This document shows positions 19,123 to 36,085 of a stretch of DNA of 64,000 bases, piece after piece. The position numbers were made by a program, and so were the translations under genes. A model generated the notes under the pieces. It was not told the DNA's origin, searched no databases, and worked only from the letters and a program-made list of their open reading frames with translations. This DNA is from Kluyveromyces lactis (lineage: Eukaryota; Ascomycota; Saccharomycetes; Saccharomycetales; Saccharomycetaceae). The stretch covers positions 682,001 to 746,000 of the forward strand of contig NC_006038.1 of assembly GCF_000002515.2 (NCBI RefSeq). Reading direction: 5' to 3'. Numbering within the stretch: position 1 is the first letter of the stretch; each line of letters opens with the position of its first letter.

Positions 19123-20652
19123 TTAGTAGACGAAACCCAAGATCTTACCGGAAACGTGCTTTCTGTGAGCTTCTTCGTGGTCCATAATGCCAGCAGAAGT
19201 AGTCAAGATAACGTAACCGAATTGTCTAGCAGGCAACAAGTTAGCAGTCCACTTTTCGACATCAGCAATTTTAACGTTGAATCTTGGAGAGATAACACCA
19301 CACTTGTTCAATCTACCGTTCAATTGAACGACGATCTTACCAGATCTGTGGTCATCAATGTATTCAAACTCACCAATGTATCCTGAATCAATATTGAAAC
19401 GAAGAATTTTCGTAATTAGAGTTAGTAAGAATGTATTTTAAAAAGTACTACTTCGTGAAAGGTTTGTGCATGGCTAATGAATCATAGCTTGAAAATTGTA
19501 TATGAATTAATTCATCACCTAATGAATTGTTGAAAACATATGCTTAACAGAATGAATAACAGGATTTATCCATGTTTCTCTTCACCTTGAATGAAATTGA
19601 TACCAATTGAGCGTTAATATTTGAGTTGCGTCTTACTGGGACACATGTTGGGAAAAAGTAAACGAGTTTAAAACATTGATAGGTAATAACTCGTGTAAGA
19701 AGCATTCTCTCAAAATTATTCTCCCGGACAATTAAAAGACAGTAAGGGACTGGATTAGTGCATTTTACTGCCCGATCAAACCATCCAGTTATCAGTCCGG
19801 GAACACTCATAATTCAAAATAAGCACTCAATTCATGGGGGAACTGTATTTATCTGCAGTGGCACATGTTTTCAACAATCGGATACGGATTCAAAAAGTCA
19901 CAACTTCGAAAGAAATCTTTCTGAGAAGCAAAGTACTTTGATACTTCATGGAGAACGGGAAAATTGACATACCGTGCTTTTGCATAACTTGCAAAAACTT
20001 GATAATGACCTTGGAGGAAGGTCTGATCAAAACTTGACGCTTACCGGTCTTTTCGGCGTTGTTGATAGCGTTTAGAGCATCGGCTAGAACAGAAGTACGA
20101 GTCACTACTCAGAAAAATGATATTTATTGAATCCAGTTAGTATAGCTTTTCTCAAACTAAAGCATGGATAGATAAAATAAAATCACACACATGTTTGTCA
20201 TTTGTGAATAGAAACAGTTTCATTTGGCAAAGTAAACGAAGACGGTGGTTGGTTTTCATTGTCTTGCTGGTGTCTGTTTCCTCTAGCGAGAACCAAAAAA
20301 AAACAGAGCAACAAGACCGGGATAAAAGAAGGACTCATTATCCAAGACAATAAAGGGTATCAGGTGGTCTATGCTTTCGTAAAACACATCTCCTCGACAG
20401 AGGAAAGTTGAAATGATAAGGAATAAAGTTAAAACAAAAACTAATGTGTTTACTCAAAAGAATACTCAATCCATTTCCCGACAAAACGGAAACTCTCAGG
20501 ACGTATCAGCATAAATTGACTTGATTCTTACCGTCTAACCAGACTCTCGTTATAACTTCTCAAAACTTTTCACACTCAAAAACACAACTGATGAGTGTGA
20601 GAATACATATATCCTCCCTTCATCTCACTTATTTTAACAGCGCTAACATACT
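19123..20652 (-). CDS. RPS22B: 40S ribosomal protein uS8 (Rps22), two introns
   Basis: The spliced product is 130 residues, the normal Rps22 length, and near-identical to Sc ([31 protein letters not shown]). Coding exon 20104-19973 joins exon 19382-19123 at a split Gly codon: donor GTATGT at 19972-19967, branch site TACTAAC at 19427-19421, acceptor CAG ending at 19383. No ATG follows the upstream acceptor. The open frame begins TG-ACT-CGT just after TAG at 20107-20105, so the A of the ATG must come from an earlier exon. A donor GTATGT at 20651-20646 preceded by A at 20652 restores ATG with A at -3. A branch site TACTAAC lies at 20142-20136. Sc RPS22B (YLR367W) likewise has a roughly 0.55-kb upstream intron and a second intron carrying snR44. 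uS8 is an essential small-subunit protein that binds 18S rRNA. Confidence 0.93.
19383..19972 (-). other. RPS22 second intron (590 nt)
   Basis: The donor is GTATGT (19972-19967), the branch site an exact TACTAAC (19427-19421) and the acceptor CAG (19385-19383). The intron interrupts the Gly codon after MQKH. It hosts the H/ACA snoRNA described separately, leaving about 170 nt upstream and about 260 nt downstream of the RNA. Confidence 0.95.
19643..19802 (-). ncRNA. SNR44: Intronic H/ACA snoRNA, snR44-like
   Basis: The 5' hairpin is closed by a 6-bp stem CCGGAC (19800-19795) / GTCCGG (19729-19724). The H box AGAATA (19722-19717) follows one base later. Pocket arms GATAACT (19793-19787) and TTTAAT (19736-19731) are complementary to 18S rRNA AGTTATC and ATTAAA, which flank U106-C107. 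TTTAAT starts 14 nt before the H box, the spacing required of an H/ACA guide. The 3' hairpin has stem ACGAGTT (19694-19688) / AACTCGT (19668-19662), and an ACA lies at 19648-19646, three bases from the predicted end. Sc snR44 sits in the RPS22B intron and guides 18S pseudouridine 106. The RNA is about 160 nt here against about 211 nt in Sc. Exact ends are estimates. Confidence 0.88.
20105..20651 (-). other. RPS22 first intron (547 nt, predicted), splits the ATG
   Basis: The acceptor TAG (20107-20105) and an exact TACTAAC branch site (20142-20136) are firm. The donor GTATGT at 20651-20646 is the choice that regenerates ATG, and the length is close to the roughly 557 nt I recall for the Sc leader intron. 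An alternative donor-like GTAAGA near 20530 would not give an ATG. An imperfect extended hairpin lies at 20261-20317. Confidence 0.75.
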
Positions 20653-26760: not shown

Positions 26761-26950
26761 TTAGTTATAAGATGAATCTGATATTAGATTTCTTTTTCTA
26801 AATATTACGGAAGAATGAGAGAATAGAGTAAGACAGAAGAGAGGGGACGTTTTGCCGGTACAATCTCGCTATTACTTATCTATTACTCAAGTTGATATAA
26901 TGTACTGCTCTGCTAGTCGATGAACAACAACCTGAGTCTATCCCCAGTTA

Positions 26951-26983
26951 TTATTTATCATGTGAGTATCACGTGATAAATAA
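26951..26983. repeat. 33-bp near-perfect palindrome with E-box
   Basis: Arms 26951-26965 and 26969-26983 are 15 bp each with one mismatch around a 3-bp centre. The right arm contains TCACGTGA, and both arms carry TTATTTATCA at their outer ends. Confidence 0.8.
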
Positions 26984-27499
26984 TTTAAATCCCTATATAA
27001 ACTAATATGTTGGCACTACTTTCGGGTAACTGTATATAGCTGCTCCCAATTAAACTATTCGTGTCGTATCTGATATCAAACCGATTAGCCTCTACTATAC
27101 TTCACTGAATATACCCCCTTCCACTTTCTAGCGTACTCATCACCATTTGTCCAAGTCAAAACAAATTGGCCTTGCTCAACTGAAAAAGAAAAACTAATTA
27201 CTATGATCGCTCAGAAAAAATTGCTGCTCGAAAAGACACTATTATTTTCCTTTTTCTTTGATGACCACCCATGGCTCTACTGAAGGCACTACCGTTGGTT
27301 ATAGAGCAATCCAGTATTGGAAATGGCTCTTGATCATACCTTAAATCTCACTGCTTTTCAATTTCTTGGTTCATTTTCAATTTTGACATGGACTTTTTTC
27401 CATATATCAGGTATATTACAATTATGCACTTTACATGTTGATTATATATATATATGTGGAATTTGGTGAAGATACTTTTTCATAGATTTAAAGATGAGA

Positions 27500-35039: not shown

Positions 35040-36085
35040 AAACTGTCTCTCTTTTTTTTTGCAATTCCCCACCTTCAATCCTTGCTTGCATTAATGAAAA
35101 ATTCGGTTTGTTTCATAATGATTTCCAGTTAGAATTAACCTAACTTGAAGGAATACACCCATACTAACGGCTATGGTTTATTGGGAAGAAGTACTATTCT
35201 AGTTTTCCTTCCAATGCGTGATGTGATACTATTGTTGTTTCCCGTTGTGAAGTTTTGTTCGTTGCTATTCGACGAAATGCTTCCGGCTGGTGAAAGTCAC
35301 ATATAGCTCCACCGTTCTACATAATAGGTCCTCAGATGAAGCTGCTTCATCCAAGACTTGGTAACTACGACTGTTTGCCGTCAAGCATTAGATTCTTTTA
35401 TCTATCTAATTCAAGTTCTACGTATTTCAAATGCAAATGGTTATATTATTTGTTTCATTTCAGTTATTATGGTTAAAGGTTTCTATTCATCGAGTGAGAA
35501 GTACTTAAACGCCCACCCTAACATTAGAGATGCCAGAAATGTACCTAGATGTAGTCATCATTGAAATCTTTGTGATTGAGACTAGACAGGGTTTCCAATG
35601 CCTAATCTCAAGTCATATAATCTTCGCATATATTTCTATAAAGAAAAAGAAGAGTAACCGAAGACAACTCTTACACACATCAACCGTGAAGAACACTTTC
35701 CTCGCCATTCATGTATGTTGAGTGTCAGCCAGTATATTTACCCTCTGTTGGTCTTTTTAACTTCCTACTTTCCATTACGATTAGTTGATAGTAAAGAGAT
35801 GTAACTGTAGGCAGTTTTGGATTTTTTATACAAAATTTTTTTAAACCTCTGTTGTTTATTTTTACCCGGATATGCGTCAGTTCAAGCACTTCAAATAATG
35901 TCATTAGGGCAGATAGAAACAAATTATTCCGGCAGGATGATAACTGAACTGATTATCAGAAAAAATATCAAATTTATTATGTTAATGACGTATTGAGCAT
36001 ACTATTCTATATCTTTATTTATTTTTTTATGTCTTCCGATTTTCACTGAAATGGATAAACTGTGCCTTTCTCAAGCAAAAGACTT
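35040..36085. other. 1.05-kb gap between convergent NMD4 and SPR3
   Basis: Unusually long for convergent genes here. Only short open frames, mostly from non-ATG starts, were seen. No tRNA-like internal promoter boxes were seen by eye. Possibly an unrecognised RNA gene or a decayed gene, but nothing supports either directly. Confidence 0.5.

Follow-up and report, generated by a model that had tools for sequence, protein, structure and literature searches.

snR44 of Kluyveromyces lactis in the second intron of RPS22, and the complementary intron arms that bracket it

Does the second intron of the K. lactis RPS22 gene carry an intact guide RNA of the snR44 family, and what might the remainder of that long intron do for the RNA lying within it? 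The question comes from a 64,000-nucleotide stretch of the genome (the window, in which all positions below are counted), where a sequence-only reading had placed an snR44-type H/ACA snoRNA at 19643-19802, inside an RPS22 intron. The host gene, the snoRNA and the intron arms described here all lie on the minus strand.

The snR44 gene and its host

A covariance-model search with the snR44 family (Rfam RF01262), put forward with that reading as a check, returned exactly 19643-19802 on the minus strand. The score is 99.5 bits where the family cut-off is 33, with E 1.4e-18 over the 64 kb, and the alignment spans the entire model, from 1 to 211. Among the best candidates scored genome-wide (10,729,447 bases, seven contigs) this was the single RF01262 match. 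At about 160 nt the RNA lacks 51 nt relative to the 211-nt model, mostly within the two hairpins, so the estimate that it is about 50 nt short was accurate. Three more Rfam matches near the locus, seen at a low threshold, were all under their family cut-offs and were taken as chance, and no tRNA was found in the 64-kb window. Elsewhere in the window, at 35458-35566 on the minus strand, lies the box C/D snoRNA snR48 (RF00471, 101.2 bits), the genome's sole match to its family. Relatives' DNA was sought with 29 letters from the conserved 5' hairpin of snR44, a pattern without an exact match in either viral_contigs or genome_contigs.

The elements follow one another as hairpin, H box, second hairpin, and ACA with three further nucleotides. 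As originally described, the 5' hairpin stands on a 6-bp basal stem, CCGGAC/GTCCGG, followed by one G and then by the H box AGAATA (19717-19722), which fits ANANNA; the ACA box is read at 19646-19648, 3 nt before the 3' end. In H/ACA RNAs about 14 nt separate the pocket from the H or ACA box. The right guide arm of the 5' hairpin measures 14 nt from the H box, the distance given earlier, and that of the 3' hairpin is likewise 14 nt from ACA.

The 5' pocket is formed by a left arm, GATAACT (19787-19793), complementary to AGTTATC of the species' own 18S rRNA, and a right arm, TTTAAT (19731-19736), complementary to ATTAAA. These pair with that 18S over 7+6 bp flanking a UC, and the unpaired U is 18S base 106, which confirms against the genome's own rRNA the earlier claim that the arms pair on either side of U106-C107. 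A pattern that runs from the right arm's complement through U and one free base to the complement of the left arm has three matches in the genome, all of them in rDNA repeats of a single contig at intervals of about 8.7 kb, and each reading ATTAAATCAGTTATC; one target locus scores 1458.9 bits as SSU_rRNA_eukarya, and the reversed control of the pattern has no genome match. The 3' pocket, with left arm CTTCTTACA (19694-19702) and right arm TTTA (19659-19662), is likely to serve 25S rRNA. Its left arm would, we assume, pair with S. cerevisiae 25S over nine bases. A pattern tried for the 25S site had 0 matches in the genome sequence open to the search, from which most of the rDNA was withheld (6927 of the 7300 bases of one rDNA stretch), and this count therefore weighs neither way. 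Because the letters of this pocket hold the conserved positions of RF01262 in the alignment, K. lactis snR44 has probably kept the equivalent of the family's second target, which passages of PMC8307265 give as 25S-1056.

By analogy with S. cerevisiae, snR44 would be transcribed within the RPS22 pre-mRNA, come free once intron 2 is spliced out and debranched, be trimmed to about 160 nt, and be bound by the H/ACA core proteins Cbf5, Nhp2, Nop10 and Gar1. The 5' hairpin would then guide pseudouridylation of 18S U106, and the 3' hairpin very probably that of the 25S counterpart of position 1056. For K. lactis, how the RNA is released, assembled into an RNP and made to catalyse, and which 25S site it targets, are inferred from that species. 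Loss of Dbr1 in S. cerevisiae lowers 18S Psi106 by 36.8%, an effect linked to snR44 of RPS22B intron 2 in passages of PMC9045821.

The host call is also upheld, and can be made more exact. Intron 1 (20105-20651) splits the start codon as A|TG, exon 2 covers 19973-20104, the 590-nt intron 2 that hosts snR44 runs over 19383-19972 (GTATGT, TACTAAC at 19427-19421, CAG), and exon 3, including the stop codon, occupies 19123-19382; GTATGT and TACTAAC are carried by both introns. The spliced frame encodes an intact 130-aa protein, RPS22/uS8, of the family Ribosomal_S8 (82.1 bits against 24), and its best solved relative is the K. lactis 40S protein S22 (PDB name KLLA0B07931p). The snoRNA is thus within intron 2 of a two-intron gene, and the agreement with S. 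cerevisiae snR44 claimed for host, intron and 18S target stands, namely RPS22 intron 2 and a pocket for U106. Passages of PMC4202332 already describe the split start codon of K. lactis and Eremothecium as a case of intron sliding.

A second, intronless RPS22 gene lies at C2:664026-664415, about 37 kb from the window's RPS22, and encodes an identical protein with 369 of 393 coding bases identical. Its neighbours read as RPL39 and RPS14, presumably the same surroundings as those of S. cerevisiae RPS22A, and because of this resemblance the gene pair, one copy with introns and one without, may be older than the divergence of K. lactis and S. cerevisiae. A scan of the two introns for NGNN-capped (Rnt1-type) stems gave nothing better than -8.2 kcal/mol in intron 2, and in intron 1 a best stem of -13.4 kcal/mol having a 13-nt loop and no closed tetraloop. 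The lack of an Rnt1-type hairpin in intron 1 fits passages of PMC4937481, which list an intron-1 structure for Saccharomycetaceae 'except L. lactis', presumably K. lactis.

The folding energy of the snoRNA is unremarkable (z -1.33; 16 of 200 shuffles fold equally well) and would not by itself reveal a snoRNA; what identifies it is the covariance model together with the boxes and the match to the target. That energy, together with a length about 51 nt below the model, is what one might cite for a decayed copy, still recognisable as a family member but no longer guiding, while another gene does the work. We considered this and rejected it as extremely improbable: the genome holds no other RF01262 match, the functional elements are all intact with a pocket that matches the species' own 18S exactly, and a Neurospora homologue of only 136 nt is a listed guide (passages of PMC2780460). 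Family membership, boxes, host intron and complementarity to the species' own 18S at U106 are observed directly, and we are close to certain that the locus is the K. lactis snR44 gene, from RPS22 intron 2, a guide for 18S U106 and very probably also for the 25S equivalent of 1056.

Complementary arms on either side of snR44

The sequence-only reading missed a 19-bp helix that brackets the snoRNA. Positions 19879-19861 (the 5' arm) pair with 19543-19525 (the 3' arm), and the 317-nt loop between them holds the entire snoRNA, the ends of which are 59 and 100 nt away from the helix. This is the longest helix in the window on either strand (at most two G-U pairs, span at most 600; runner-up 16 bp), and the longest in 308,000 strand-bases (154 kb, comprising the window and nine 10-kb nuclear stretches, span 100 to 600), where the runners-up are 18 and 17 bp. 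Its pair probability is 0.97 whether or not the snoRNA is masked, the inner arms were equalled in 0 of 1000 shuffles, and the fold of the entire intron 2 has a z of -3.32 (0 of 100 shuffles). Chance complementarity or a relic inverted repeat would be consistent with the 18- and 17-bp helices at other places in the DNA sampled, but we think this improbable: 19 bp was reached by none of 1500 arm shuffles (the best was 17, once), the arm duplex was matched by 0 of 150 shuffles and in another run by 0 of 300, and the arms fall short of perfect complementarity at just two pairs, each of them G-U. Elsewhere in the window, an inverted repeat at 26950-26984 has 16-bp arms and a 3-nt loop.

Outside the 19-bp helix is an outer helix of 8+5 bp, with its 5' arm at 19925-19939 (P 0.90 and 0.96), starting 33 nt past the 5' splice site, and its 3' arm at 19442-19454, ending 20 nt before the branch A. 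The rule for zipper stems given in passages of PMC12350175 asks for a linker of 42-85 nt. The outer helix falls within the rule, with 8 bp, a linker of 53, an end exactly at the 20-nt limit before the branch A and P 0.90; the 19-bp helix, with its linker of 196 nt, alone falls outside it. As stand-alone evidence the outer helix was dismissed, since 87 of 1000 shuffles did as well, too many for significance. Counting the bracketing pairs of intron 2 in its minimum-energy fold gives a z of only 1.3, and 22 of 200 shuffles score as high.

Four further intronic snoRNAs were located in K. lactis, U24 in ASC1, snR38 in TEF4, snR191 in NOG2 and U18 in EFB1, the host names resting on our reading of open frames; we take these hosts to be the same as in S. 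cerevisiae. Together with snR44 they make up the five introns of the arm-pairing set, and snR54/IMD4 and the RPL7-intron snoRNAs lie outside it. For S. cerevisiae, eight intronic snoRNAs are given in passages of PMC4202332. Scored as a duplex against shuffled arms, pairing across the snoRNA has a z of -5.2 for snR44, -4.6 for U24, -4.8 for snR38, -6.5 for snR191 and -4.4 for U18, in each case with 0 of 150 shuffles as strong. The control long introns gave -0.9 (RPS22 intron 1), -5.4 (RPL28), -1.7 (RPS17), -2.9 (ACT1), -1.2 (RPL39) and 0.5 (RPS14). A z of -4.4 or lower is thus found in five of five snoRNA introns and in one of six others, in a small sample in which arm lengths differ (controls trimmed to 160 and 180 nt, snoRNA introns whole at 80 to 222 nt). 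When each entire intron half served as an arm, RPL28 reached -5.8 and the other five controls -0.3 to -2.1, and with the 160 nt adjoining the centre all six controls lay between 0.2 and -2.2. Random placements showed such arm pairing in 0 of 210 cases, never below a z of -2.7. The RPL28 intron, for which we know of no snoRNA, has strongly complementary arms in its own right.

In minimum-energy folds, bracketing-pair counts do not separate the five snoRNA introns (z 1.3, 2.9, -1.3, 3.2, 1.7) from the six others (0.2, 2.1, 1.5, 1.3, 1.3, 0.0), and this overlap disfavours the simple claim that snoRNA introns are more zipped. The five are also not uniform. A separate shuffle run on four of the introns reached the snR38 arms once in 300 and the other three not at all in 300, and in the ensemble the snR38 arms are not stably paired (15.3 expected pairs). 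Helices of at least 6 bp with a linker of 42-85 nt and P of at least 0.9 occur in three of the five (snR44, snR191 and U18), U24 and U18 have stems near the snoRNA ends, and the 19 bp of snR44 form the longest uninterrupted bracketing helix of the set.

Possible roles of the arms

From the modelled pairing, the arms around snR44 are predicted to act as a zipper or as external stems that would aid both splicing and release of the snoRNA. Extended to the set, K. lactis snoRNA introns may take the form of a zipper whose tip holds the snoRNA, for H/ACA and C/D RNAs alike, so that one structure would join the splice sites and free the snoRNA; we put this forward tentatively, giving it somewhat less than an even chance. 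Almost an even chance goes to a plainer view, in which the arms are the ordinary intron zipper of long yeast introns, unrelated to the snoRNA lying inside. Zipper stems are enriched in K. lactis introns generally, among other species (n=151; passages of PMC12350175), and the plainer view would further explain why RPL28, without a known snoRNA, reaches a z of -5.4, why the minimum-energy pair count fails to tell snoRNA introns from others, and why the outer helix obeys the linker rule. Against it stands the duplex result, a z at or below -4.4 in all five snoRNA introns against one of six others (a small sample with unequal arm lengths), and with whole halves as arms still just RPL28 stands out among the six controls.

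The arms might instead serve snoRNA processing, as a protective or positioning external stem or as the entry site of a double-strand RNase. The 19-bp helix does enclose the snoRNA, U24 and U18 likewise have their nearby stems, and Rnt1 release without splicing is cited for S. cerevisiae in passages of PMC9045821. We nevertheless hold such a role to be less likely than not, given the 59 and 100 nt between the helix and the snoRNA ends, and given an intron 2 without a notable NGNN-capped stem of the kind that Rnt1 requires (according to passages of PMC12508059). The bracketing arms could matter more than snR44 itself, bearing as they do on whether snoRNA introns splice well by means of zippers while carrying a cargo of 92-268 nt.

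Relation to known systems

The snR44 gene is an ordinary finding, since the family, its host and its wide conservation are already published. It shares with S. cerevisiae snR44 (RPS22B intron 2) the host gene, the intron number, two hairpins with H and ACA boxes, and the pocket for 18S U106, and differs in its 160 nt against a 211-nt family model, the gaps falling mostly inside the hairpins. A published probe for the S. cerevisiae RNA spans the same 5' arm with few differences from K. lactis (passages of PMC2862742). The likeness extends, by description, to Nc ACA1 of Neurospora crassa, an intronic snR44 homologue of 136 nt (against about 160 nt here) with 18S and 26S targets in passages of PMC2780460, and snR44 is reported from both Saccharomycotina and Pezizomycotina in passages of PMC4937481. 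With the family so widespread and a Neurospora homologue that is both intronic and shorter still, neither retention in the host nor the short RNA is unusual, and the surprise implied by the earlier reading is not borne out. The locus adds one more conserved guide retained by its host intron, with the 18S target checked within the same genome.

That the arms flanking a snoRNA matter is no new idea, as a 2007 paper on snoRNA position in yeast introns reportedly speaks of stable external stems. What the K. lactis arms have in common with these is pairing of the intron on both sides of the snoRNA; the external stems are said to have been described for box C/D snoRNAs, whereas snR44 and snR191 are H/ACA RNAs. 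Mammalian snoRNAs are reported to pair with the introns that host them (PMC10324135). No account of bracketing stems as a general feature of snoRNA introns in K. lactis was found in the abstracts and passages searched, and a DMS study of S. cerevisiae introns left its eight snoRNA introns aside, according to passages of PMC12350175. With the zipper stems of that study, in RPS17B and others, the arms share long-range pairing that shortens the distance from the 5' splice site to the branch point, and the outer helix around snR44 fits the same 42-85 nt rule; the strongest helix around snR44 differs from them in having a 196-nt linker and in enclosing a snoRNA.
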